Source: Altererythrobacter sp. B11
GTDB lineage: Bacteria > Pseudomonadota > Alphaproteobacteria > Sphingomonadales > Sphingomonadaceae
Direction of reading: 5' to 3'
Assembly: GCF_003569745.1 (NCBI RefSeq)
Contig: NZ_AP018498.1
Location: 310,001-374,000 of the forward strand
DNA: 64,000 nt
Numbering within the stretch: the stretch's first letter is position 1; each line of letters starts with the position of its first letter. A program made the translations under genes and the position numbers. The notes below the pieces were generated by a model. The model did no database searches and was not told the origin of the DNA. It saw only the letters and a list, made by a program, of their open reading frames with translations. Shown piece after piece: positions 751 to 27,888 of the stretch.

Positions 751-3700
751 ATGGGAAAAGTGATTCGGCCCCGCGGCCATAAGTCCGTCCTTGCATGTTC
801 CACCGCCATGCTCCTGCTCGTGCCCGCCGCGGCCCGGGCGCAGGACGCCGGAGCCAACGATCCTCCCCCCGCCCCTGCTGCCGCCCCCGCGAATACAGAC
901 GCGGCCGAACCCGCCGGCCAGCCCATCGTCGTCACCGGATCGCGCATCCAGCGGCGCGATTTCAACTCCGAAAGCCCGATCGTCACCCTGTCCGACACCT
1001 TGCTGGAAAACACTGGCGAAGTCGGGCTGGACCAGGCGCTGAACGAATTGCCGCAATTCGGCGGGGGCGCCAACCAGATCACCAGCGCCACCGATATTCA
1101 GGCCACCCCCACCAGCTCGCCCGGTATCGCCACGGTCAATCTCCGCGGTCTTGGCGCCAATCGCACGCTGGTCCTGCTCGACGGCCGCCGCACGCAGCCG
1201 GCCAACGCCAGCCTGGTGGTGGACCTCAACACCATCCCCGTGGCCGCACTGGACGGGGTGGAGATCATCACCGGCGGCGCAGCTGCCACCTATGGTGCGG
1301 ACGCGGTGGCCGGCGTGGTCAATTTCCGGCTCAAGCGCAATTTCCAGGGCGTGGAGCTGGACGGCCAGTGGGGCCAGAGCTTCCGCGGCGACGGCGCGCA
1401 ATACAAGTTCAGCGCGCTGCTCGGTTCCGACTTCGCCGATGGGCGCGGCAATGCCATGATCGGCCTCACCTATCAGAAGCGCGGCGGCGTCTATCTGCGC
1501 GACCGGCCGTTCTACGAAGCCGCCTTCACCGATCCCAACACGCCCGGCCGCAACGTATGGCCCAATTTCGGCGGCTTCAACGGCACCTCCACCCAGGCGG
1601 CCTATGATTCCGTGTTCGTGCCCAAAGGCTATGCCCCGGGGGACGTACCCAACGGCACGCAGCTGTTCTTCAACACCGCACCCACGGTGGGAGAGGCAAC
1701 GCTGTTCTCCGTCGCCCCCGGCTCCGTCAGCGGCGCACCCGCGCCCGGGTTCGAAGGAACGCTTTATCCGGACAACAAATTGCTGGCGGACGGCACGCTG
1801 TCGCCCAATTCCTATCCGGGCCTGCTGTCCAGCCCGATGGAACGCTATTCCATGTTCGCCACCGGCTATTACGAAGTGGCCGACAACATCGAATTCTACG
1901 TGCAGGGGAATTTCGACCAGAACGAGACGATGACCGAGATCATCGGCTATTCCCCCGCCTTCAACCAATGGTCCGTCACCGTGCCGCGGGACGGCGCGCA
2001 TGCGGTGCCGGATGAATTCGCCACCATCCTCAACAACCGCGCGAACCCGAATGCCCCCTGGTCGCTCTACAAGCAGATGGACTATCTCGGGCCGCGGCAG
2101 ATCAGCACCAACACCTACACCTATGAAGTGCTGGCGGGCTTCCGGGGCGACATCGATTTTCGCGACTGGACCTTCGACATCTTCGCCTCTCACGGGCGAA
2201 CCAATGCCACCACGCATTATCACGGCTTTGCCGACCTGGCGCGGTATCAGGATCTGATCAACCGGCCAAATTACGGCGCCGGGGCCAGCTTCAACAACGG
2301 CCGCACCGGTCTGCTGGCCACTTGCACCAGCGGGCTCAATCCCTTCCTCAACACGCCGGTGTCGCAAGACTGCATCGACATCATCGGTGCGCCGATCAAG
2401 ACGGTGTCGGACCTCAAGCAGAACCAGGCCGAGCTGAATTTGCAGGGCTCGCTGACGGAGATTCCCGCTGGCGATCTGCGCTTTGCCGCGGGCGCCGCCT
2501 ATCGCGAGAACAGCTTCTCCTACGAACCCGATCCGGCCATCTCCACCACCAACACCACGTCGCTGACCGTCGGCCTGTTCGACACCTCGGCCACGGAAGG
2601 CAAGACCACGGTGAAGGAGGTCTATGGCGAACTGCTGATCCCGGTGCTGGCCGATCTGCCCTTCGTCCAGTCGCTGACGATCAACGCGGGCGCCCGCTAT
2701 TCGGATTACAACACGGCCGGCGGAGTCACCACCTGGAAGGTGAACGGCGATTGGTCGATCAATGACTGGCTGCAGGTTCGCGGCGGCTATCAGCGGGCCA
2801 ACCGTGCGCCCAATGTGGCGGAGCTGTTCCAGCCTGCAGTGTTCCAGACCGTACAATGGCCGGATCACGATCCATGTTCCATGTTCACCCGCGCCGATTA
2901 CGGCAATGTCGCCAGCAATCCCAACCGGGCGCAGGTTCAGGCGCTGTGCACCGCGCTGGCCGGCGGCTTCCCCATTGGCGACAATTTCGCCGGCAACGTG
3001 CCCACCTATTTCCCCCTCGGGCGCGATCTGCAGCGGGGCAATGAGAACCTGAAGTCGGAAAAGGCATCCACCTGGACGGCGGGCGTCGTGATCCGTTCGC
3101 CGCTGGAAACCCCGGCGCTGCGCAACCTCCAGCTCTCGGTCGACTATTACAACATCAAGATCGACGGGGCGATCGCGCCGGCCTCCACCCAGGTCGTGTA
3201 TCAGGAATGCTTCAACGCACTGGGCAACAACCCCACCTACGATCCCAATTTCGATTATTGCCAGCGGATCTCGCGCAGCGATGTGAACGGCTTCTGGATC
3301 GCCACCGAAGCCTCGTTCGAGAACCTCGGCATGATCGCCACCTCGGGCGTGGACGTGCAACTGGACTGGAGCGTGGATGCCCCCGGCATCGGCGGCGATA
3401 CCGGCGCCTTCTTTGCCAATGTGCTGTTCAATTACCTCGAGAAGTACGAAGTGCAGAACAACCCCGGCGGGCCGGTGTTCGACTATGCCGACACGATCGG
3501 GGCCACCATCTTCAACCCGCCCTATGGGGCGCAGTTCAAGTGGAAGCTCAACACCACTGTCGGCTATGATTTCGGGCCAGGTTCGCTTAGCCTCAACTGG
3601 CGCCACACGCCCAGCGTGCGGCATTTCGCCAAGGCCACGAACCCGACTGCGGCGCAAAACGACATCAAGGCTTACGACATCTTCGATCTGGCAGCGAATT

Positions 3701-3876
3701 ACCGCCTGAATGACAAGCTGCAGTTCCGCGCGGGGGTCGATAATCTGTTCGACCGCGACCCCAATATCTATGGCGCCATTCCCGGCACCACTGACGCGGT
3801 GGGCGAGCCGGAGCCGGGCGGCTCTTTCGACGTGCTCGGTCGCCGCTTCTACATCGGCGCGAAGGTGAGCTTCTGA
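751..3876 (+). CDS. TonB-dependent outer-membrane receptor
   Basis: A 1041-residue TonB-dependent receptor that would import a ligand across the outer membrane using ExbBD-TonB energy. A signal peptide covers about residues 1-30 (basic start, then LLLVPAAARA before QD). The plug follows with IVVTGSRIQRRDF and the conserved LRGLGANRTLVLLDGRR, then VEIITGGAAATYGADAVAGV. The long beta barrel ends in NLFDRDPNIYG and a terminal phenylalanine (GAKVSF), as outer-membrane barrels do. The ATG at 751 is chosen over an in-frame ATG at 715 because GGGGAGAGA lies just before it. The plug style is typical of the large receptor families of sphingomonads. The ligand is unknown. A divergent FAD oxidoreductase may process it. 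Confidence 0.93.
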   Translation: MGKVIRPRGHKSVLACSTAMLLLVPAAARAQDAGANDPPPAPAAAPANTDAAEPAGQPIVVTGSRIQRRDFNSESPIVTLSDTLLENTGEVGLDQALNELPQFGGGANQITSATDIQATPTSSPGIATVNLRGLGANRTLVLLDGRRTQPANASLVVDLNTIPVAALDGVEIITGGAAATYGADAVAGVVNFRLKRNFQGVELDGQWGQSFRGDGAQYKFSALLGSDFADGRGNAMIGLTYQKRGGVYLRDRPFYEAAFTDPNTPGRNVWPNFGGFNGTSTQAAYDSVFVPKGYAPGDVPNGTQLFFNTAPTVGEATLFSVAPGSVSGAPAPGFEGTLYPDNKLLADGTLSPNSYPGLLSSPMERYSMFATGYYEVADNIEFYVQGNFDQNETMTEIIGYSPAFNQWSVTVPRDGAHAVPDEFATILNNRANPNAPWSLYKQMDYLGPRQISTNTYTYEVLAGFRGDIDFRDWTFDIFASHGRTNATTHYHGFADLARYQDLINRPNYGAGASFNNGRTGLLATCTSGLNPFLNTPVSQDCIDIIGAPIKTVSDLKQNQAELNLQGSLTEIPAGDLRFAAGAAYRENSFSYEPDPAISTTNTTSLTVGLFDTSATEGKTTVKEVYGELLIPVLADLPFVQSLTINAGARYSDYNTAGGVTTWKVNGDWSINDWLQVRGGYQRANRAPNVAELFQPAVFQTVQWPDHDPCSMFTRADYGNVASNPNRAQVQALCTALAGGFPIGDNFAGNVPTYFPLGRDLQRGNENLKSEKASTWTAGVVIRSPLETPALRNLQLSVDYYNIKIDGAIAPASTQVVYQECFNALGNNPTYDPNFDYCQRISRSDVNGFWIATEASFENLGMIATSGVDVQLDWSVDAPGIGGDTGAFFANVLFNYLEKYEVQNNPGGPVFDYADTIGATIFNPPYGAQFKWKLNTTVGYDFGPGSLSLNWRHTPSVRHFAKATNPTAAQNDIKAYDIFDLAANYRLNDKLQFRAGVDNLFDRDPNIYGAIPGTTDAVGEPEPGGSFDVLGRRFYIGAKVSF

Positions 3877-3909
3877 CCCGGCGGAGGAACCCCCCGATCT
3901 CCGCCGCTG

Positions 3910-3936
3910 CAGGCCGGGCCGCAAGGGCCCGGCCTG
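3910..3936. terminator. GC-rich hairpin after the TonB-dependent receptor
   Basis: CAGGCCGGGCC and GGCCCGGCCTG form a perfect 11-bp stem around the loop GCAAG, 33 bp after the receptor stop codon. Only a short TTC follows, so it lacks a full U-tract. It may act as a weak terminator or a 3'-end stabiliser before the next gene at 3987. Confidence 0.5.
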
Positions 3937-3986
3937 TTCGCGGTGGCACCGGCGTGCCATTCGAAAGGCGTGAAGGAGTCCCGCTG

Positions 3987-4541
3987 ATGCGCCCTGCCCT
4001 GCTGTTCACCGCAATTGTGCTATCCGCCATGCCGGGCGCCGCCCCGGCGCAGGAGGCAAGCGCTCAGGATGCTCTCGCGCCCTTTGCCGCCTGTGCGAAG
4101 ATCGCCGGCGATCGGGAGCGGCATCGCTGCCTCGATGCGGCGCTGCGCAGCACCGGAATTATCGACGAAAAGCAGGCGGAGGCGCGCCGGCAGGAGAATT
4201 TCGGCCGCACCCCGGCACAGGTGGAGGCTCGCAGCGAAAGTGCTGTCCCGCCTGCCCCTGTCGCTCCCGATCCGAGCCGCACGGCAGCGGCCGAACCCAC
4301 ACGGACGGCCGATCCGGAGCGCCAGCCGTTGCAGGCCACGGTGGCCTCTGCCCGCCTGATCGGCCGCGACCGGATGGTGGTCCGCACAGCGGAGGCGGGG
4401 GAATGGGCGTCCGTCGAGCGCGAAACCTTCCGCCGCACGCCGCGGGCGGGGGATCCGTTCGAGATCATTCCGGGAAGCCTTGGCGGCTATCGCTGCCGGA
4501 TAGAGCGCACCACGCTGTTCGCCTGCCGCCGGATCGATTGA
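3987..4541 (+). CDS. Exported hypothetical protein
   Basis: A 184-residue protein with an N-terminal signal peptide (MRPALLFTAIVLSAMPGAAPAQ). The middle, about residues 70-115, is rich in Pro, Ala, Arg and Glu and looks disordered. The C-terminal 70 residues look folded and contain cysteines in YRCRIERTTLFACRR; an earlier pair sits in CAKIAGDRERHRC. Disulfides in the periplasm are therefore possible. The start at 3987 is favoured by AAGGAG ten bases upstream. The N-terminal part (FAACAKIAGDRERHRCLDAA) resembles small exported proteins annotated only as hypothetical. I cannot assign a function. Confidence 0.75.
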   Translation: MRPALLFTAIVLSAMPGAAPAQEASAQDALAPFAACAKIAGDRERHRCLDAALRSTGIIDEKQAEARRQENFGRTPAQVEARSESAVPPAPVAPDPSRTAAAEPTRTADPERQPLQATVASARLIGRDRMVVRTAEAGEWASVERETFRRTPRAGDPFEIIPGSLGGYRCRIERTTLFACRRID

Positions 4542-4555
4542 GCGCCAGGCCGCCC

Positions 4556-5176
4556 TCAGCTGCGAGCGGCGGCCTGCCGCGGCGAAAAACCGCGTTGCGA
4601 CCTGTCGCCCTTCGGTGCCGGAACGGAAGGAGCAGCGCGCACGTCGGCGCGCAGCAGTTCGTCCACCACGCGCTCGTAATGCTGCATGGCGCGGCGCATA
4701 TCGTCCTGCGACGCAGCGCCCCGCTCAAGCCGCAGAACGACATCATGGGCTGCACGATAAAGCTGTGCCGCGACGCCGTGATCGACGGTCAAATCTTCGT
4801 ACCGCTGCCGGGAATCGCCCGTCGAAAAGCCGCGCATGGTCATGATCCGGCCGATCAGCTGGTCGGCGCGACGCAGGGCCTCTTCCGGGTGATGGGAAAA
4901 GTGATTCGTGATCTCGGCCCATTCCCGCTGGATGCTTGCGGCTTCCGTGGGCACCACGGGCCGGATGCGCACGGCAGAGGGGTGGGAATTGCGCATGCTC
5001 GCCGCTGGCTCGCCCCGTGACCGGCTTGCAGCAGCCGCGAGCACGCGGGCGTATTCCTCGCCATAGCGGCGGCGCAGCTGTTCGGTGTGTTGGCGGCGGA
5101 AGCTGCGCCAGATCGCCGCAGCGGTCAGCAGGATCAAGCCGGCAGCGATAACAAGCAAGGCTTCGCCGAGCGGCAT
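4556..5176 (-). CDS. Membrane-anchored protein of unknown function
   Basis: A 206-residue protein with one N-terminal transmembrane segment (GEALLVIAAGLILLTAAAIW) followed by a basic stretch (RSFRRQ), so the rest should be cytoplasmic. The body carries RRRYGEEYARVL and then a helical part with REWAEITNHFSHHPEEALRRADQLIGRIM, TVDHGVAAQLYRAAH and a late YERVVDELL. From memory this matches a widespread uncharacterised family with a YxxARV-like start and an HY/YRAAH helix, also seen in actinobacteria and acidobacteria. The ATG at 5174-5176 has GGAG upstream. A longer open frame continues upstream but is low-complexity basic sequence and is rejected. It is convergent with the exported protein ending at 4541. 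Confidence 0.72.
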   Translation of the reverse strand: MPLGEALLVIAAGLILLTAAAIWRSFRRQHTEQLRRRYGEEYARVLAAAASRSRGEPAASMRNSHPSAVRIRPVVPTEAASIQREWAEITNHFSHHPEEALRRADQLIGRIMTMRGFSTGDSRQRYEDLTVDHGVAAQLYRAAHDVVLRLERGAASQDDMRRAMQHYERVVDELLRADVRAAPSVPAPKGDRSQRGFSPRQAAARS

Positions 5177-9690: not shown

Positions 9691-10854
9691 TCAACTTGCG
9701 CCGATCAGCTCCCGCCCGATCAGCATGCGCCGGATTTCGTTGGTACCGGCCCCGATATCGAGCAGTTTCGCATCGCGCAGATAGCGTTCCACGGGCCAGT
9801 CGGTGGTGTAGCCCGCCCCGCCTAGCGCCTGCACCGCTTCCCCCGCCACGCGGAAGGCATTCTCGCTAGAAAGCAGGATCGCCCCGGCAGCGTCGAAGCG
9901 GGTGGTGCGCCCGGCCGAACAGGCGCGGGCCACGGCATAGGTGTAGGCCCGGGCCGACTGGAGCGCGACATACATGTCAGCCACCTTGGCCTGCATCAGC
10001 TGAAAGCTGCCGATCGGCCGGCCGAACTGCTCGCGTTCGCGCACATAAGGGATCACCGTGTCGAGACAGGCCTGCATGATCCCCAGTTGCACGCCCGCAA
10101 GCACCGTCCGTTCGTAATCGAGGCCGCTCATCAGCACTTTCACGCCCTGGCCCACCTCACCCAGCACATGGCTGTCCGGCACCACGCAGCCGTCGAACAC
10201 CAGTTCGCTGGTGGGCGAGCCGCGCATCCCGAGCTTGTCGATCTTCTGCGCAGGGGCGAAACCGGCGAAATCCCGCTCCACGAGGAAGGCCGTGATGCCC
10301 TTGCTGCCCGCGGCCGGATCAGTCTTCGCATAGACCACCAGCACGTCTGCCTCGTGCCCGTTGGTGATCCAGAACTTGCTGCCGGTCAGCGACCAGCCAC
10401 CATCCACCCGCTCCGCTCGCAGCTTCATGGAAACGACATCGGAACCGGCCCCCGCCTCGCTCATCGCCAGTGCGCCGACGTGCTCGCCGGAAATGAGGCG
10501 GGGCAGGTGCCGCGCCTTCTGTTCCGCCGTGCCCCAGCGCGCGATCTGGTTGATGCACAGATTGGAATGGGCGCCATAGGAGAGTCCCACCGAAGCGCTG
10601 GCCCGGCTGACCTCCTCGATCGCCACGACATGCTCCAGATAGCCGAGTCCGAGTCCGCCATCCGCCTCCGCCACGGTGATGCCGTGCAGACCAAGTTCGC
10701 CCATCAGGGGCCACAACTCGCGCGGGAAGCGATCTTCCCGATCCACCTTCTCGGCGAGGGAGGCGATTTGCTCGTCTGCGAAGCGGGCGACGCTCTCGCG
10801 GATCATTCCCGCCTCGTCGCCCAGGCCAAAGTCGAAATCCGGGGTCGCGCGCAT
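9691..10854 (-). CDS. ivd: Isovaleryl-CoA dehydrogenase
   Basis: A 387-residue FAD-dependent acyl-CoA dehydrogenase, the usual length for isovaleryl-CoA dehydrogenase, which converts isovaleryl-CoA to 3-methylcrotonyl-CoA. Motifs include ALAMSEAGAGSDVVSMKL, SLTGSKFWITNGHEADVLVV, KLGMRGSPTSELVFD and YERTVLAGVQLGIMQACLD, whose Glu is in the position of the isovaleryl-CoA dehydrogenase catalytic base; the C-terminal part has REQFGRPIGSFQLMQAK and LGGAGYTTDWPVERYLRDAK. The substrate call is supported by mccB downstream, the next enzyme in the pathway. The ATG at 10852-10854 follows GGAGAGGA; the ATG nine codons earlier lacks a good site. Also called liuA. Confidence 0.9.
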   Translation of the reverse strand: MRATPDFDFGLGDEAGMIRESVARFADEQIASLAEKVDREDRFPRELWPLMGELGLHGITVAEADGGLGLGYLEHVVAIEEVSRASASVGLSYGAHSNLCINQIARWGTAEQKARHLPRLISGEHVGALAMSEAGAGSDVVSMKLRAERVDGGWSLTGSKFWITNGHEADVLVVYAKTDPAAGSKGITAFLVERDFAGFAPAQKIDKLGMRGSPTSELVFDGCVVPDSHVLGEVGQGVKVLMSGLDYERTVLAGVQLGIMQACLDTVIPYVREREQFGRPIGSFQLMQAKVADMYVALQSARAYTYAVARACSAGRTTRFDAAGAILLSSENAFRVAGEAVQALGGAGYTTDWPVERYLRDAKLLDIGAGTNEIRRMLIGRELIGAS

Positions 10855-10999
10855 AGTCAATTCCTCTCCGGCCAGAGCCATAGCAAGGCAGCGTCCACAG
10901 GCAAACTCGTTACGGGTGAAATCAACCTTACGCCTGCTTCATGCACTGAAAGGATTTGGAGGGTGGCAAATCTCGTCCAAACAGCCGAAAAGGGGCCAA

Positions 11000-12511
11000 G
11001 TGACCATACAATCCAATCTCATGTGGCCCGTCGGCAGCCCGCCGGCTCCGAGCTTCACTCACGAGCAGCAGCGCCTGCAGGTGCTCGAATCCTACGTTCT
11101 CGATTCGCTGGTCGATGATCCAGAGCTACGCACAATCACCGAATTCGCCGCCCGGCTCTGCGACGCTCCGGTAGCCCTGATCAGCCTGGTGGAGGAGGAA
11201 CGTCAGCTGTTCCTCGCGCGCGAAGGCCTGGATGCGCGCGAAACGCCCCGCGACGTCTCCTTCTGTGCCCATGCCATGCTGCACGACAGTGTGATGCTGG
11301 TCCCGGACGCGACGCAGGATGACCGCTTCGCCGATAATCCCCTCGTCACCGGGGCGCCACATATCCGCTTCTATGCCGGACAGCCGCTGATCTCCCAGGA
11401 AGGGGCTCCGCTGGGCACGCTGTGCGTGATCGACAGCCACCCTCGGCCACAGGGGCTCACGAGTTTGCAGCGGCAGGGCCTGGTGGTGCTCGGCCAGTCG
11501 GTGATGCGCCGCCTGCGATCCCGCCGCGGACAGATCGAAAGTATTCGCCGATTGCAGCGCAGCGAGGAGCAGTTACGCGCGCTGGCGGATTCCATGCCCG
11601 ACATCGCGTGGTCCGCCGATGCGAATGGCAAGCTGGACTATTTCAACAGCCGCTGGTTCGAATACACCGGCGTGAAGGACGCGGAATACAAGCGCGACCT
11701 TGTCCACCCCGAGGATTACGAGCGCGCGTCCGCCGCCTGGAAGCAGGCGGTGCGCGATGGCACGCCCTACGAGGCGGAAAGCCGATTGCGCAGCGCGAAT
11801 GGCGAATGGCGCTGGATGCTGGTGCGGGCCGAGCCGGTAATGGACGATGAAGGCCGGGCGCACCGCTGGTTCGGCACGATGACCGACGTGGACGAGGCGC
11901 ACCGCCTGTCCGAGACGCGGGAGCTGCTGGCGCGCGAATTGTCGCACCGGATCAAGAACATCTTTGCCGTGGTGGCAGGTCTTATCTCTCTGGCGGTGCG
12001 CAAGAAGCCGGAGCATCGCGAGTTTGCCGAGGAATTGACTGGCACGATTCGCGCGCTGGGGCGCGCACATGATTATGTCCGGCCATCGGGCGGGCAGCGC
12101 CAGGGCACTCTGCTGGGCATGCTGGGGGATCTGTTCCAACCCTATGCCGATTCGTCCGGCCCCCGCGTTCATGTGCAGGGCGACGATGCACCGATCGCGG
12201 CCCGCGCAGCCACGCCCGTGGCTCTGGTGTTCCACGAGCTGGCGACCAATTCCGCCAAATATGGCGCCCTTTCCAACGATACCGGCGTGGTGGAGCTGGC
12301 GATCGAGGATCGGGGCGAGATGCTGAAGCTGCGCTGGGTGGAGCAGGGCGGCCCGCCGCCCGGCAGCGAGATGAACGAAGGCTTCGGTTCGCGCCTCGTC
12401 GATATGAGCGTGAAGGGCCAGCTCGGTGGCAGCTGGGAACGGCGCTTCACCGAGGAGGGGCTGGTGGTCGAACTGAAGCTCTCCAGGCAGGCGATCTCTC
12501 CGGATCCGTGA
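11000..12511 (+). CDS. HWE-family sensor histidine kinase with GAF and PAS domains
   Basis: A 503-residue soluble sensor kinase with no membrane segment. A GAF domain spans about residues 30-170 (RLCDAPVALISLVEEERQLF, SFCAHAML), then a PAS domain about 190-310 (SMPDIAWSADANGKLDYFN, with LRSANGEWRWML before its end). The kinase part has ELSHRIKNIF with the phospho-accepting His near 316, an N-box HELATNSAKYGALS, and LRWVEQGG, the W-x-E that gives the HWE family its name. The GTG at 11000 is chosen because AGGGG precedes it; the later ATG at 11021 lacks a ribosome site. The stop overlaps the next gene's GTG (GTGA), linking it to the transporter. No response regulator is adjacent. Confidence 0.9.
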   Translation: MTIQSNLMWPVGSPPAPSFTHEQQRLQVLESYVLDSLVDDPELRTITEFAARLCDAPVALISLVEEERQLFLAREGLDARETPRDVSFCAHAMLHDSVMLVPDATQDDRFADNPLVTGAPHIRFYAGQPLISQEGAPLGTLCVIDSHPRPQGLTSLQRQGLVVLGQSVMRRLRSRRGQIESIRRLQRSEEQLRALADSMPDIAWSADANGKLDYFNSRWFEYTGVKDAEYKRDLVHPEDYERASAAWKQAVRDGTPYEAESRLRSANGEWRWMLVRAEPVMDDEGRAHRWFGTMTDVDEAHRLSETRELLARELSHRIKNIFAVVAGLISLAVRKKPEHREFAEELTGTIRALGRAHDYVRPSGGQRQGTLLGMLGDLFQPYADSSGPRVHVQGDDAPIAARAATPVALVFHELATNSAKYGALSNDTGVVELAIEDRGEMLKLRWVEQGGPPPGSEMNEGFGSRLVDMSVKGQLGGSWERRFTEEGLVVELKLSRQAISPDP

Positions 12512-22827: not shown

Positions 22828-23472
22828 ATGCCCCCGCACCAGACCCTGCCGGATCGCTGGCTGCTGTCCGACGCGCGCAACGATGCCGCGCTCGAACGCG
22901 CTCTGTCGCGCCTGCCGCGCGGCTCGGGCTTCATCTATCGCCACTATCACCTACCGGACGAGCAGCGCTTCGCCCGCTTCCGCGTTCTGGCGCGCCTTGC
23001 CCGCGCGCGCGGACACTGCGTGATCCTGGCGGACAGTGCGCTGACGGCGAAGGAATGGCGCGCCGATGGCTATTACGGCGCGCCCCGTGCGCTGCTGCCG
23101 CGCCGCAGCGGCCTGCTGACGCTGGCGACGGTGCATAATCTGCGCGAGATCGCCCTTGCCAACCGCCTCGGGGCTGCGGCGGTGCTGCTCTCGCCCGCCT
23201 TCGCCACCCGCTCGCATCCGGGCGCCAGCACGCTCGGCCCAATGCGCTTTCATCGCCTGGCCGCCCGGTCGAACGTGCCGGTGATCGCACTGGGGGGCAT
23301 GGACCAGCAGGCGGCTCGTCGCCTTCGCCACCCCCGCTGGGCGGCGATCGACGGGCTTTCGGGGCGCCGGCGGATCGGTGCCACCGAGGCGGCAATTCTT
23401 GACGGCGAGTCCGCCGGAGGCGATGATGCGCATCGCGAACACAGGGAGTACACATGGCAAGCCGCGCGATAG
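22828..23472 (+). CDS. Thiamine-phosphate synthase-like (ThiE/TenI family) protein
   Basis: A 214-residue TIM-barrel protein resembling ThiE/TenI. Supporting segments are GSGFIYRHYHLPDEQR, HCVILADSALTAKEWRADGYYG, LATVHNLREIALANRLGAAA, LLSPAFATRSHPGASTLGPM and VPVIALGGMDQQAARRL; the SPAFAT..HPG..LG stretch parallels the family's phosphate-binding part (VFxTxTKxxxxPxG). It lacks the strict ThiE T-K-x(4)-P-x-G form, so thiamine synthase activity is uncertain and TenI-like roles are possible. The ATG at 22828 is preceded by CAAGGT. Its 3' end overlaps ftsK by 19 bp. Confidence 0.75.
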   Translation: MPPHQTLPDRWLLSDARNDAALERALSRLPRGSGFIYRHYHLPDEQRFARFRVLARLARARGHCVILADSALTAKEWRADGYYGAPRALLPRRSGLLTLATVHNLREIALANRLGAAAVLLSPAFATRSHPGASTLGPMRFHRLAARSNVPVIALGGMDQQAARRLRHPRWAAIDGLSGRRRIGATEAAILDGESAGGDDAHREHREYTWQAAR

Positions 23473-25799
23473 CCCGATCGCAGCCGACGGATTGGCGCGC
23501 CGCCTTCCGCCGCTCGCTGGCGCGCGCCATGCAGCTGGCCGGCGGCGCGCTGCTGTTCGCCGGGATGATCTTCCTCGCCGTATCGCTGATCACCTACACG
23601 CAGACGGACCCCTCCCCCTCCACCGCCGCCGGGGGCGAGATCGGCAATTGGATGGGTCGCCCCGGCGCCTGGCTGGCGGACCGGGCGCTGGTAAGCTTTG
23701 GCCTCGTCTCCGCGCTGTTCCTGCCGCTGCTCTATGCCTTCGCCAGCAAGCTGTGGCGGGACGCGGCGGAAGAAGAAAGCCTGGACGGGGATCGCTGGTG
23801 GCGCACGGTGGCCCTGCTGCTGATCGCCATGGCGCTGCTGTCCACGGTGCTATCGCTCGCCACCGATCCGCATGAATGGCACCTGCCCGCGTCTGCCGGC
23901 GGGATGGCCGGCCTGCTGGGCGAAGGGGCCGTGCATGCACTGGCCGGCCTGCTGCCAGAGGCGGCGCAGTTCTGGGCCACGCTGGGGGCAGCGGTACTAT
24001 GCCTGCTTGGCGGCGCGGCGTTGGCCGGGCGGGTCTTCACGCTCGACTGGGCGCGGCTGCTGACCTTACCCGCAGCCTTGCGCCGGGCATCCACACGGCC
24101 GGACCGCGAAGCCGTGACCGCCCGGCCTCGCCGTCAGGCACCGCCGCCTGAGGATGCCGTCGATGAGATGGACGACGGGCCGGCGGCGGAGGATCGGCCT
24201 CCACGCCGACCAACGGAGATCAGCGATCCTTCGCGCCCGCCACGCCCGGCGCAGCCCGCCAATGCGCGGCAGAAGGATCTGTTCGCCGATTTCGAGTTGC
24301 CGAGCCTCGACCTTCTCACCGATCCCCCGGTCGAAACCGCACCGAAGCTCGACAAGCTGGCGCTGGAGCGCAACGCGCGCCTGCTCGAAAACGTGCTCGA
24401 CGATTTCAACGTGAAGGGCGAGATCACGGCCGTGCGCACCGGCCCGGTGGTCACGATGTACGAGCTGGAACCGGCGCCCGGCATCAAGGCCAGCCGCGTG
24501 ATCGGCCTGGCGGAAGACATCGCCCGCAACATGAGCGCGATCAGCGCCCGCGTCTCGCCCATTCCCGGGCGCACGGTGATGGGCATCGAACTGCCGAACA
24601 AGGACCGGCAGATGGTCAGCTTCAAGGAGCTGGCGGCCTGTGCCGATTTCGTCGATCACAAGGGTGGCCTGCCGATCATCCTGGGCAAGGACATCGCGGG
24701 CGAACCGGTCGTGGCCGATCTCGCCGCCATGCCGCATCTGCTGGTGGCGGGCACCACCGGATCGGGCAAATCCGTGGGCCTCAACACGATCCTGCTGTCG
24801 CTGCTCTACCGCTTCACGCCCGCCGAATGCCGGCTGATCCTGGTCGATCCCAAGGTGCTGGAGCTCAAGAGCTACGACGATATTCCCCACCTGCTCTCCC
24901 CCGTGGTCACCGAGCCGCACAAGTCGGTGCGGGCGCTGAAATGGGCGGTGGAGGAGATGGAGCGGCGCTATCGCATGATGAGCGACATCGGTGCCCGCAA
25001 CATCAACGGCTTCAACGAGCGCATTCGCGCCGCCGCCGCCAAGGGGAAGCCGCTGGGCCGCCGCGTACAGACCGGCTTCGATCCGGAGACGGGCGAGGAA
25101 CTGATCGAGGAAGAGCAGCTCGATTATCAGGTGCTGCCGCTGATCGTGCTGATCGTGGACGAGCTGGCGGACCTGATGGTTACCGTGGGCAAGGAGATCG
25201 AAGTCCTGATCCAGCGGCTCAGCCAGAAGAGCCGCGCGGCCGGCATTCACCTGATCATGGCGACGCAGCGCCCCTCCGTCGACGTCATCACCGGCGTCAT
25301 TAAGGCGAACCTGCCTACCCGCGTCAGCTTCCACGTCACCAGCCGCATCGACAGCCGCACCATCCTGGGCGAGCAGGGGGCCGAGCAGCTGCTGGGCAAG
25401 GGCGACATGCTCTACAAGCCTTCCAGCGGGCCACTGAAGCGCGTGCATGGTCCGTTCGTTTCCGACGAGGAGGTGGAATCGGTCGCCAATCACTGGCGTG
25501 CGCAGGGCGAACCTGCCTACATCGATTCGGTCACCGAAGAACCGGAAGATGGCGGCTTCAATTTCGAGGACGACTTTACCGCTTCAGACAATCCGGAAGA
25601 GCGGAAATATCGCCAGGCGTGCCAGGTGGTGTTCGAAAACCAGAAGGCTTCGGGCAGCTGGCTGCAGCGCCAAATGGGCGTTGGCTACAACACCGCCGCC
25701 AAATGGATCGAGCGGATGGAAGGGGATGGGCTGGTGGGCCCCGCCAACCATGTCGGCCGGCGCGAAATCTATCGCGACCGGGACGGCAACCCGCTTTAG
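23454..25799 (+). CDS. ftsK: DNA translocase FtsK
   Basis: A 781-residue septal DNA translocase that pumps chromosome termini and activates XerCD recombination. About four N-terminal membrane segments (first LAGGALLFAGMIFLAVSLIT) are followed by a short linker rich in Pro and Arg (about 200-280), much shorter than in E. coli. The motor has Walker A LVAGTTGSGKSVGLNT (about 429-444), Walker B LPLIVLIVDELADLM and MATQRPSVDVITG. The C-terminal gamma winged helix (RQACQVVFENQKASGSWLQ, VGYNTAAKWIERMEGDGLVG) is intact and should read KOPS. GGGAG precedes the ATG. The stop overlaps the convergent gene by 4 bp. Confidence 0.97.
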   Translation: MASRAIARSQPTDWRAAFRRSLARAMQLAGGALLFAGMIFLAVSLITYTQTDPSPSTAAGGEIGNWMGRPGAWLADRALVSFGLVSALFLPLLYAFASKLWRDAAEEESLDGDRWWRTVALLLIAMALLSTVLSLATDPHEWHLPASAGGMAGLLGEGAVHALAGLLPEAAQFWATLGAAVLCLLGGAALAGRVFTLDWARLLTLPAALRRASTRPDREAVTARPRRQAPPPEDAVDEMDDGPAAEDRPPRRPTEISDPSRPPRPAQPANARQKDLFADFELPSLDLLTDPPVETAPKLDKLALERNARLLENVLDDFNVKGEITAVRTGPVVTMYELEPAPGIKASRVIGLAEDIARNMSAISARVSPIPGRTVMGIELPNKDRQMVSFKELAACADFVDHKGGLPIILGKDIAGEPVVADLAAMPHLLVAGTTGSGKSVGLNTILLSLLYRFTPAECRLILVDPKVLELKSYDDIPHLLSPVVTEPHKSVRALKWAVEEMERRYRMMSDIGARNINGFNERIRAAAAKGKPLGRRVQTGFDPETGEELIEEEQLDYQVLPLIVLIVDELADLMVTVGKEIEVLIQRLSQKSRAAGIHLIMATQRPSVDVITGVIKANLPTRVSFHVTSRIDSRTILGEQGAEQLLGKGDMLYKPSSGPLKRVHGPFVSDEEVESVANHWRAQGEPAYIDSVTEEPEDGGFNFEDDFTASDNPEERKYRQACQVVFENQKASGSWLQRQMGVGYNTAAKWIERMEGDGLVGPANHVGRREIYRDRDGNPL

Positions 25800-27100
25800 C
25801 TCCGGGCCGGCTGCCCGGCGAGTTCGGAAGCCAGCGCCAGCACCCGCTCGGACGCCAGTTCGCCCGTTAGCGCATAGGCCATCGAGCCTTCTTCCCAATA
25901 GGCCATGGATCGGCGCTCCCGCCGTTCCAGCAGCGGCAGCTTTTCCGCCGGCGTTTCCGCCCGGGTGGCAAAGAGCGAAACCTCGTCGCCCGATTCCGTC
26001 ACGATCATCAAGGCCACCGAAATGCCGAGATCTGAGGGGAAGACCTGCACATCCTTCAGCTCCCAGTCGCGCGGCAGATCGGGCAGGCGCAGGCCTGTCG
26101 CGCGCGCGATCTCCGCGCGGTCAAGGCTGGTGCTCTCAAGCTGCGAGACCATCCGCTGCCGGGCCTGGCTGGCATCGTAGGACGCCGCGGCTTCATCGAA
26201 GAAGGAAGCGGCGTGGGCCGGCGGCGCGACATCGCCCACCACATCATGCGCCAGCCATCCGCTGACAAGCAACGCCGCCATGGCCGCCGCGCGCCGCCAG
26301 TGGGATGGCCTGCGCTCCGCACGCGCCCGATGCGGCATGGGAATGACTTGCCCCGAGCGGAGCTTGCGGCCGATCAACGTGCCCTTGGTGCTGCCCGCCA
26401 GGCGTTCGAAACGGATCTCCGGCCAAGCCTTGCGCCAGCGCCGCGCGACGATCCGTTCCCCGGGCCGCGCCGCATCGTCCAGCAGGACGATGCCCCCCGG
26501 TGAAAGGCGGTCGAACAGGCACTCCGCCCCTCCGCGAACGAACGGATGGATCGCCCATGGGGGGCCATCGATGATCAGCAGGTCGATCGTGTCGGGCAGA
26601 TCGCGCAACGCATACCAGCGGCCGGGCCAGCCGCGCACCTGCGCGGTGAGCGGGGCGTGGCGCAGAGCGGCCGTGCCGCCTTCCTTTTCCACCCATTCCG
26701 CCGTGGCGGCGACGAAGCCGCGATGCTGGTCATAGCTGAACAACCGCCCGCCACCGTTGTGCTGCAAGGCCCGGGCACACACGAGCGTGGTCGCGCCCGC
26801 GCCCAGTTCCACCACGTTCCGTGGGCGAATTTCCTCCACGGCATCGACGATGCGATGCAGGAAGCCGGTATCGGCCTTCCAGCTGCCGAGGTGGGGCAAG
26901 GCATCCTCGCCCAGGCCGACGCGCGCCAGCAATTCGCGCTTGGAGGCCTTCGTTCCACCCCACAGGCTGTAGAGCAGCCAGGGCCAGCCGATCGCACCAA
27001 AGGCAATTCGATAGGCGCGGTCCGACCAGGTGGAATCGCTGCGCTCGTCCGCATCCTCGTCCGGCAAGGCCAGCAGTCCGGTAACATTTCTAGAGGTCAT
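25796..27100 (-). CDS. Class I methyltransferase fused to anti-sigma-factor-like membrane/sensor half
   Basis: A 434-residue protein in two parts. Residues 1 to about 255 look like a SAM-dependent methyltransferase: NVVELGAGATTLVCARAL (SAM loop), DLLIIDGPPWAIHPFVRGGA and GGIVLLDDAARPGERIVARR. After a basic linker comes one membrane segment (AAAMAALLVSGWLAHDVVG, near 285-303) and a domain with AEIARATGLRLPDLPRDWEL, KDVQVFPSDLGISVALMIV, EVSLFATRAE and MAYWEEGSMAYALTGEL. From memory this matches the transmembrane and periplasmic half of sphingomonad anti-sigma factors; the usual N-terminal zinc anti-sigma domain is absent. No ECF sigma gene is adjacent. The frame is continuous across the junction. 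The start ATG at 27098-27100 has no strong ribosome site. Confidence 0.8.
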   Translation of the reverse strand: MTSRNVTGLLALPDEDADERSDSTWSDRAYRIAFGAIGWPWLLYSLWGGTKASKRELLARVGLGEDALPHLGSWKADTGFLHRIVDAVEEIRPRNVVELGAGATTLVCARALQHNGGGRLFSYDQHRGFVAATAEWVEKEGGTAALRHAPLTAQVRGWPGRWYALRDLPDTIDLLIIDGPPWAIHPFVRGGAECLFDRLSPGGIVLLDDAARPGERIVARRWRKAWPEIRFERLAGSTKGTLIGRKLRSGQVIPMPHRARAERRPSHWRRAAAMAALLVSGWLAHDVVGDVAPPAHAASFFDEAAASYDASQARQRMVSQLESTSLDRAEIARATGLRLPDLPRDWELKDVQVFPSDLGISVALMIVTESGDEVSLFATRAETPAEKLPLLERRERRSMAYWEEGSMAYALTGELASERVLALASELAGQPARS

Positions 27101-27273
27101 GGGGGAATCCGTCAGGGGAGATGGACCGCCCTACTGCGCCTGCGCCGCCCTTGCCAGCCCGTGTTCGGCTGTCCGCCGCGCTTCGCCTCAGTCCCGATAC
27201 GCTGCGCCTCACTCCTAGCCGAGGGCAAGGGCGACGTGCGATGCTCCGGCAAAACTGTTGGAGAAGGATCGAA

Positions 27274-27888
27274 ATGGCCAGCAAATACGAAGCTCAGGTC
27301 TATCACTGCATGGACCCCGCGCTCGAACTCTACGAGCGCACTGCAACACCACTACACAAGGCTATCCTACTCAATTACTGCCGCCACGTTCATCTGGAGG
27401 GCGCGGCCATGTTCGCGGAGATCACCGCGCCCGACATGATGGCCGACGATCCGGTCTATCACGTGAGCTGGGGGGAGAACCCGGTGGTGGTGAAGGGGCG
27501 GCAGGGCGTGGCCGATTTCTACTCCGCAATCGGCGACATCGTGCTGTGGAACACCGGGGACCAGATCGCCGTGGCGGACTGGGGCATCGCGGACGAGATG
27601 TGGTTCCACCAGATGTCCACCGGGGCGGAGCTGCGCAAGATCGGGCATCGGGTGGAGAAGGAGGACGGGCTCTACCTCGTGTCCAGCCGCCAGGCCTTCA
27701 TCTGGCCCTATGACGAGCGCGCGCTGCTGAAGGGAGAGCATCTGTATGAGGACAAATCGACCCTGCGGATCGAGGAGATCGACCCCGCCGATGCGATGAC
27801 GCCGGAGCGCGTGCGGCAGATCCACCGCGAGTGCCTGGAAGAGCTCGAGGCCCGCTTCGGCGCCCGCTACTGGGTGTGGCAGGGCTGA
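27274..27888 (+). CDS. NTF2/SnoaL-like protein
   Basis: A 204-residue protein probably with an NTF2-like cone fold. Typical parts are an N-terminal helix pair (LHKAILLNYCRHVHLEG), MADDPVYHVSWGENPVVVKG, GVADFYSAIGD and a sheet with RKIGHRVEKEDGLYLVSSR. NTF2/SnoaL-like proteins include isomerases, hydratases and binding proteins, so the activity cannot be called. The ATG at 27274 follows GGAGAAGGA; an upstream in-frame extension is low-complexity and is rejected. It ends 45 bp from the convergent TonB-dependent receptor gene and may belong to the same uptake/catabolic locus. Confidence 0.65.
   Translation: MASKYEAQVYHCMDPALELYERTATPLHKAILLNYCRHVHLEGAAMFAEITAPDMMADDPVYHVSWGENPVVVKGRQGVADFYSAIGDIVLWNTGDQIAVADWGIADEMWFHQMSTGAELRKIGHRVEKEDGLYLVSSRQAFIWPYDERALLKGEHLYEDKSTLRIEEIDPADAMTPERVRQIHRECLEELEARFGARYWVWQG

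Follow-up and report, generated by a model that had tools for sequence, protein, structure and literature searches.

A sphingomonad methyltransferase joined to the membrane and periplasmic half of an extracytoplasmic function anti-sigma factor: a possible envelope-controlled enzyme

A 434-residue protein of Altererythrobacter sp. B11 (Alphaproteobacteria, Sphingomonadaceae) joins a class I S-adenosylmethionine (SAM) methyltransferase to a membrane span and a periplasmic domain that is homologous to the C-terminal half of extracytoplasmic function (ECF) anti-sigma factors. Its gene lies in a stretch of 64,000 nucleotides (contig NZ_AP018498.1, positions 310,001 to 374,000 of the forward strand), referred to here as the window. 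We propose that the protein is an inner-membrane methyltransferase that uses the membrane and periplasm module of alphaproteobacterial ECF anti-sigma factors and is controlled by the state of the envelope, a reading to which we give an even chance of being right. Under this proposal a periplasmic domain resembling the C-terminal domain of RseB/MucB would read the envelope state, and the cytoplasmic side, instead of sequestering a sigma factor, would methylate a membrane-associated compound, most probably an intermediate of a surface glycan or one that is lipid-linked. Control might be exerted by a conformational change, or by regulated cleavage right after the span, which would free or destroy the enzyme, as anti-sigma factors are destroyed. 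Read most simply, the protein would be an envelope sensor in a single piece, with a methyltransferase, and not a sigma factor, as the part that it holds or releases. Sensing and regulated activity are what we propose for the fusion, starting from its domain composition, its conservation, the charge topology, the RseB-like predicted fold and the reuse of the same module on three enzyme families. The parts of the gene, all on the reverse strand of the window, are as follows.

25796 to 27100, reverse strand: fused gene, 434 residues, methyltransferase, membrane span and RseB-C-like periplasmic domain (translated frame, Pfam, AlphaFold2, full-length relatives)
26966 to 27028, reverse strand: residues 25-45, hydrophobic N-terminal helix (GAIGWPWLL) in the AlphaFold2 model, which stand-alone enzymes also have
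26360 to 27025, reverse strand: residues 26-247, class I methyltransferase domain (Pfam Methyltransf_24, Foldseek O-methyltransferases)
26792 to 26812, reverse strand: residues 97-103, VELGAGA, SAM-binding loop with E98, G100 and G102 invariant
26555 to 26572, reverse strand: residues 177-182, IDGPPW, acidic motif and probable active site with D178 invariant
26453 to 26485, reverse strand: residues 206-216, LLDDAARPGER, putative metal-site motif with D208 and D209 invariant
26240 to 26302, reverse strand: residues 267-287, membrane span, N-in/C-out (AlphaFold2 helix, charge gradient)
26210 to 26218, reverse strand: residues 295-297, A-H-A, signal-peptidase-I-like A-x-A site right after the span (column conservation)
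26096 to 26218, reverse strand: residues 295-335, periplasmic stretch with two helices, 295-316 and 328-335 (structure models)
25817 to 26095, reverse strand: residues 336-428, periplasmic domain of six strands and a helix, RseB/MucB C-terminal-domain-like and common to ECF anti-sigma factors (profiles, models)

The original prediction, made from the DNA alone, had described one continuous frame holding a class I SAM domain, a single span and a periplasmic C-terminal domain, and each of these elements was recovered. The frame is unbroken, opens with ATG, contains all of the motifs quoted at the time, and ends in a stop codon that overlaps the stop of a convergent ftsK-like gene. In Pfam the sole match of the protein is to Methyltransf_24 (PF13578; residues 97-209, E 1.6e-11, 45.5 bits against a cut-off of 26.3); neither Pfam nor NCBIfam names a domain in its C-terminal half, an NCBIfam scan of the whole protein gave no match, and no N-terminal sigma-binding domain (zf-HC2 or ASD) was found in it. 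AlphaFold2 models the whole protein (mean predicted local distance difference test score, pLDDT, 86.8; predicted template modelling score, pTM, 0.62) as a methyltransferase, a helix at 267-287 and a separate C-terminal domain. The best Foldseek matches of the enzyme part are O-methyltransferases, many of them solved with Mg (best E 2.1e-9).

In a collection of named genomes 211 loci encode a relative of this protein, and the best 80 of these, which were kept for counts, comprise 51 full-length fusions, 27 stand-alone enzymes and two with full-length homology in a broken frame. The 51 fusions together with the window protein form the fused set of 52 used throughout. E98, G100, G102, D124, D178, D208 and D209 are invariant in all 52 fused proteins and all 27 stand-alone enzymes, such that the SAM loop and the acidic active-site residues are intact and methyl transfer is predicted. 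By comparison with COMT-type enzymes, the LLDDAARPGER motif is a putative metal site. The stand-alone Methyltransf_24 enzymes of sphingomonads (243-263 residues at the 27 named loci) share the whole enzyme domain, which is 55-72% identical to the window protein at the 19 loci compared, but have neither the span nor the periplasmic domain. They do share the N-terminal helix region, where W39, P40, G48 and G49 are present in all 52 fused proteins, and P40, G48 and G49 in 27/27 and W39 in 26/27 of the stand-alone enzymes.

Beyond the enzyme, the flank before the span is of higher net charge than the flank behind it in 52/52 fused proteins, and the orientation is therefore N-in/C-out. The hydropathy of the span is modest, with a best 19-mer of 1.45 in the window protein and a median of 1.27 in the 52.

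The evidence that the C-terminal half, hereafter the module, is half of an anti-sigma factor comes from its relatives. It is 41.7% identical over 115 residues to the C-terminal part of a 269-residue anti-sigma-type open reading frame (ORF) in another genome of the genus (G002, locus L004), and that ORF follows and overlaps one for an ECF sigma factor. A profile of the module (A2, E <= 1e-6, eight first-look candidates scored per genome) finds it in 51 of 397 genomes of the family and 53 of 385 genomes of the class. We read 59 of the 60 places in the family, the sixtieth being a 62-residue fragment, and found the N-terminal part to be Methyltransf_24 at 20 (one cut by a contig end), an FkbM methyltransferase at three, a third enzyme at three, and anti-sigma-type or unresolved at 33. 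All 52 places outside the family were read, and at 51 of them an ECF sigma ORF lies on the same strand no more than 400 bp away. Altogether such an ORF adjoins the module at 82 of the 111 scored loci. The 29 loci without one are the 20 Methyltransf_24, three FkbM and three third-enzyme fusions plus three others, one of which (L193) lies at a contig end; none of the 26 enzyme-joined copies (26/26) has an ECF sigma neighbour. Using a profile made from eight sigma ORFs found at these loci (E <= 1e-6), we found no ECF-sigma-like ORF in the 64-kb window and no sigma-like ORF at any of the 80 named loci. The module is thus homologous to the C-terminal halves of ECF anti-sigma factors, and with its span and collinear periplasmic domain the fusion corresponds to the single-span members of that group from Alphaproteobacteria; unlike them it carries a methyltransferase in place of the sigma-binding domain and lacks a sigma neighbour.

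Public annotation of plasmids points the same way. In all four annotated regions read (Phyllobacterium, Rhizobium, Microvirga and Chelatococcus), the gene directly after a sigma-70 family gene is labelled 'anti-sigma factor'; a fifth plasmid region that was read is a fused copy and carries no annotation, and the other plasmid matches have no listed feature. All four of these Hyphomicrobiales plasmids (L213-L216) preserve the gene order sigma, anti-sigma, Bax inhibitor-1 family. At L114, the gene after the sigma/anti-sigma pair (3580-4662, forward strand) encodes AhpC-TSA and 2OG-Fe(II) oxygenase domains in one protein, and genes that by eye look alike come after several further pairs in sphingomonads. 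At L123 (2635-3595, forward strand) the module comes after a proline-rich stretch, and the frame gives no recognisable N-terminal domain. Among 55 module sequences, weak matches to DUF4245 (15/55, best E 5.1e-4) and DUF4367 (4/55, best E 3.8e-4) are leads only.

On these points the original prediction is partly supported: its observation stands, and its interpretation was right about the origin of the C-terminal half, about the unusual join and about the absence of a nearby sigma gene. It had further claimed that a zinc anti-sigma domain was replaced by the methyltransferase. The replacement holds, but the zinc is doubtful: a zf-HC2-like N-terminal domain scored above cut-off in one of four anti-sigma relatives scanned and below it in three, and by eye the N-terminal sequences of these relatives mostly lack a Cys-rich zinc motif, so that the label fits this lineage poorly. 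The remaining part of its interpretation, a membrane sensor with methylation as the signalling output, has the standing of a proposal.

Given this ancestry, the fusion could still take part in sigma regulation, for example if it and an anti-sigma factor compete for one and the same ligand or partner in the periplasm. It has the same periplasmic domain, and three of the 19 fused genomes of the family (G173, G330 and G340) also hold an anti-sigma-type copy of the module. We nevertheless think this very improbable, as no module-bearing anti-sigma factor was found in the other 16 of 19, the window's own genome included (E <= 1e-6, eight first-look candidates per genome), and the sigma profile is silent in the window and at the 80 named loci. 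The window's own genome has no second copy of the module at E <= 1e-6.

The module itself (residues 294-434) was modelled with a pLDDT of 92.1 and a pTM of 0.88. RseB/MucB chains make up the top nine, and 12 of the top 13, of its PDB matches in Foldseek (E 6.4e-4 to 2.7e-2). A reference profile of RseB was made from PF17188 domains, found in 24 of 150 genomes of the phylum, of which 23 were aligned; against it, hhalign matched the module with a probability of 88.3 and P of 2.9e-6 over 88 columns, covering positions 8-97 of 98, and the smaller profile A2 gave 84.7 and 6.7e-6. None of 100 column shuffles reached this match (lowest P 0.017), nor did the reversed alignment (0.12) or any of 30 families of flanking genes (lowest P 0.0012). 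The periplasmic domain is therefore predicted to have a fold like that of the RseB/MucB C-terminal domain, albeit remotely, and likeness to these sigma-E regulators extends to both predicted fold and profile. By sequence, the solved structures gave no match for the module at E <= 1 and none for the fused set at E <= 0.1. In gammaproteobacteria DegS cannot cut RseA until RseB, which is bound to the periplasmic part of that protein, has come off, lipopolysaccharide being the proposed releaser (PMC8103513).

Fusions of the same layout are widely kept. The original prediction had looked to related genomes for the same two-part architecture, with two separate genes or a sequencing error near 26,300 as the alternatives. 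The architecture is there in full length at 51 of the best 80 named loci, and a search with the whole protein gave matches at E <= 1e-5 in 100 of 298 family genomes, of which, counting from the listing, 11 carry the fusion at full length and 64 match over the enzyme only (about residues 1-250), while the remainder match in the C-terminal half alone or in a short methyltransferase segment. By the module profile, 19 of 397 family genomes have the fusion, at 20 loci of which one is truncated by a contig end. Its hosts include most listed Sphingobium loci, Aurantiacibacter, Alteraurantiacibacter, Croceicoccus, Croceibacterium and Rhizorhabdus, as well as Novosphingobium endophyticum and Qipengyuania huizhouensis; Croceicoccus marinus has one copy on its large plasmid plas1. 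Croceicoccus bisphenolivorans strain H4 holds two different copies (L043 10001-11299; L044 3245-4519). In two Sphingobium records (L083 and L088, about 10001-11270) the fusion is in a broken frame, through decay of the genes or draft errors.

A frameshift or assembly error that joined two neighbouring genes is a negligible prospect. Nothing was found in its favour, the same junction in 51 other genome loci excludes a sequencing error, and no separate C-terminal half was found near any of the 27 named stand-alone enzymes (4.3 to 20.8 kb around each) or the 19 of a second genome set (1.5 kb flanks). Where homology runs past a stop (in G095 to residue 297, in G058 to residue 321), no C-terminal half was found either.

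Both halves of the fusion are under purifying selection. Among 127 close pairs with usable synonymous divergence (module identity 75-98%), which share sequences and so are not independent, the median ratio of nonsynonymous to synonymous substitution rates (dN/dS) is 0.075 for the enzyme and 0.145 for the module, and for the module no pair (0/127) reaches 1 or more; close pairs alone were used, since distant pairs are distorted by saturation. These values bear on the main rival explanation, in which the module is a passive anchor or scaffold with no signal input, serving just to keep the enzyme on the inner membrane or to dock it with a periplasmic partner that anti-sigma factors use too. Consistent with this, the stand-alone enzymes have the same catalytic residues and hydrophobic N-terminal helix and manage without the module, and the module evolves faster than the enzyme. 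On the other side, selection maintains a whole folded periplasmic domain, which is more than would be expected of an anchor, and the same domain serves in sigma/anti-sigma pairs. We regard a passive role as doubtful, while treating it as a serious competitor to envelope control.

The segment just after the span invites a different explanation, namely that signal peptidase cuts after A-x-A at 295-297 to yield two products, a membrane methyltransferase and a soluble RseB-like periplasmic protein; if gated by a signal, this would amount to control of the RsiV or RsiP type. A297 is present in 52/52 fused proteins and A295 in 50/52 (V in the other two), the next residue is S in 26 and A in 19, and the span, as noted, is only moderately hydrophobic. 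Signal peptidase is described as starting the destruction of RsiV once lysozyme binds (PMC6066255) and as cutting RsiP at site 1 (PMC8844934). The layout of RsiV and RsiP, a span followed by a signal-peptidase-type site and an extracytoplasmic sensory part, resembles that of the fusion; their cytoplasmic part, unlike that of the fusion, binds a sigma factor. The window genome has two Peptidase_M50 matches (the site-2 protease family), one of them partial, and four to Peptidase_S26 (the signal peptidase family), which we count in favour of envelope control. The linker, though, is rich in alanine: A-x-A occurs in 51 of 52 Methyltransf_24 fusions where 38.0 would be expected from shuffling, in 5 of 6 other enzyme fusions (2.9 expected), and in 30 of 37 anti-sigma rows (21.9 expected), the 37 being those of 85 anti-sigma-type or unresolved rows that fell within the bit-score limits, with L004 and L123 left out. 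Because of this composition and the relatedness of the rows, the site is only a lead. The motif is also missing from one of the six other enzyme fusions, and there is no amphipathic guarding helix of the kind proposed for RsiV (PMC6066255). Cleavage into two products is in our view unlikely.

Several observations weigh against envelope control as we propose it. The first periplasmic helix is amphipathic in none of the 52 fused proteins, so a guard in the style of RsiV is not supported. RseB occurs on its own as a soluble protein and has a further N-terminal, LolA-like ligand domain; the domain of the fusion, unlike RseB, is covalently joined to a span and an enzyme and lacks that ligand domain. 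The RseB/MucB chains matched by Foldseek represent two proteins, E. coli RseB and P. aeruginosa MucB. With low TM-scores (for the top nine, 0.46-0.49 of the query), the structural match is a remote one, and only three module matches reach E <= 0.001, in an output that is silent on which RseB domain was matched. The hidden Markov model of PF17188 matches nothing in the window's own genome or among 55 module sequences, and we therefore call the domain RseB-C-like and not a member of the family. Enzyme-only matches are commoner than the fusion (64 against 11 of 298 family genomes), from which it follows that the module is not needed for retention of the enzyme, and neither of the other two genomes of the genus (G001 and G002) has the fusion. 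Fusion neighbours differ between genera and no conserved neighbour names a pathway; with neither a sigma gene nor an obvious pathway gene recurring, functional naming by neighbours failed. Finally, one of three neighbourhoods read around relatives of the third enzyme described below (L255, in G058) shows no glycan gene by eye.

The module has been joined to two other enzyme families, which means that the fusion in the window is no lone oddity. On FkbM methyltransferases it is found at L126 (3067-4497, reverse strand), L154 (2612-4009, forward strand) and L124 (3045-4241, reverse strand). The Pfam FkbM domain is present in 3/3 and TIGR01444 in 2/2 scanned; like the window protein these are methyltransferases bearing the same module and lacking a sigma neighbour, but they differ in enzyme family and form a separate branch of the module tree. 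At L124 a likely N-terminal part is split from the main ORF by stops. The third enzyme, of about 400 residues, carries the module at L132 (1071-2825, forward strand), L151 (2296-4023, forward strand) and L152 (1494-3233, reverse strand). Of two scanned with Pfam, one matched Glyphos_transf under the cut-off (E 0.0041) and the other nothing, and the sole PDB match by sequence is short and looks unrelated; we tentatively call it glycerophosphotransferase-like. As far as the titles and opening lines of abstracts in the open-licence literature go, we found no report of an anti-sigma C-terminal half joined to a methyltransferase, and the occurrence of the same half on three FkbM methyltransferases and three copies of the third enzyme, as judged from their sequences, appears to be new here as well.

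Relatives of the third-enzyme domain match in 64 of 149 family genomes, one being the G117 fusion itself. In the window's own genome a stand-alone relative lies beside a flippase-type polysaccharide-biosynthesis protein, a glycosyltransferase, a HAD phosphatase and an NTP-transferase, and in G147 another lies beside a HAD phosphatase and an NTP-transferase. Such neighbours point to surface polymers, and we infer that the Methyltransf_24 enzyme itself may have the same link. In one genome a stand-alone relative (L253 6523-7707, forward strand) stands just before an FkbM-like match (G147:C1:133832-134491, forward strand), making two module-bearing types of enzyme neighbours there.

Trees were used to ask how often these joins arose. 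The module tree took 26 of the 52 fused proteins and 41 of the 85 anti-sigma-type or unresolved rows, within bit-score limits and with L004 left out. In it the 26 Methyltransf_24 copies form one clade (support 96/81), as do the FkbM (100/98) and the third-enzyme copies (100/99), the last standing beside the Methyltransf_24 clade at 97/65. The best tree has two changes between anti-sigma and enzyme and none of 200 bootstrap trees has one, although the starred branches alone force only one; a single switch thus seems unlikely. For the enzyme, a careful tree of 41 of the 52 fused and 23 of the 27 stand-alone proteins, with near-copies thinned, requires two changes for the origin of the fusion, and none of 200 bootstrap trees has one, yet holding the fused rows together is accepted with a p of 0.437 in the AU test (p-AU), and a single origin of the fusion is neither shown nor excluded. 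It is tempting to go further and suppose that in sphingomonads a sensor of envelope stress resembling RseB was freed from sigma-factor control and joined, probably on more than one occasion, to cytoplasmic enzymes of envelope polymers. Damage would then act on the enzyme itself through regulated cleavage beside the span, as a fast, post-translational response that repairs or remodels the envelope and bypasses transcription; this we offer as a tentative idea of rather low probability.

Around the gene itself, the comparison with a sister species (G001) and the convergent neighbour add two features.

23454 to 25799, forward strand: ftsK-like DNA translocase (homologues), convergent, its stop overlapping that of the fused gene
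25816 to 27259, strand not applicable: stretch without counterpart in G001, where the site between ftsK and the next gene is empty (genome comparison)

The name ftsK-like is one we presume from the sequence of the product. In G001 the gene that starts at 27274 in the window comes about 160 bp after ftsK, and the fused protein has no match in that species at E <= 0.001; presence or absence of the fused gene is clean-cut. In Alteraurantiacibacter aquimixticola a 372-residue ORF directly before the fused gene (L038 8775-9893, forward strand) has by eye the look of another methyltransferase.

Retention of the join across dozens of related species suggests that cells have put one envelope sensor to further use, in the direct control of enzymes and not of genes. 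If this is true, the periplasmic half of these anti-sigma factors would be a portable sensor that is not tied to sigma factors, and methylation or sugar-phosphate transfer would be added to transcription, phosphorylation and cyclic-di-GMP among the outputs that a transmembrane sensor drives directly. On the same condition, the gammaproteobacterial RseA-RseB pair would seem to have a one-piece counterpart in Alphaproteobacteria. The enzyme fusions would then help to find what these anti-sigma factors sense, as the substrates of the enzymes should point to the same envelope process.

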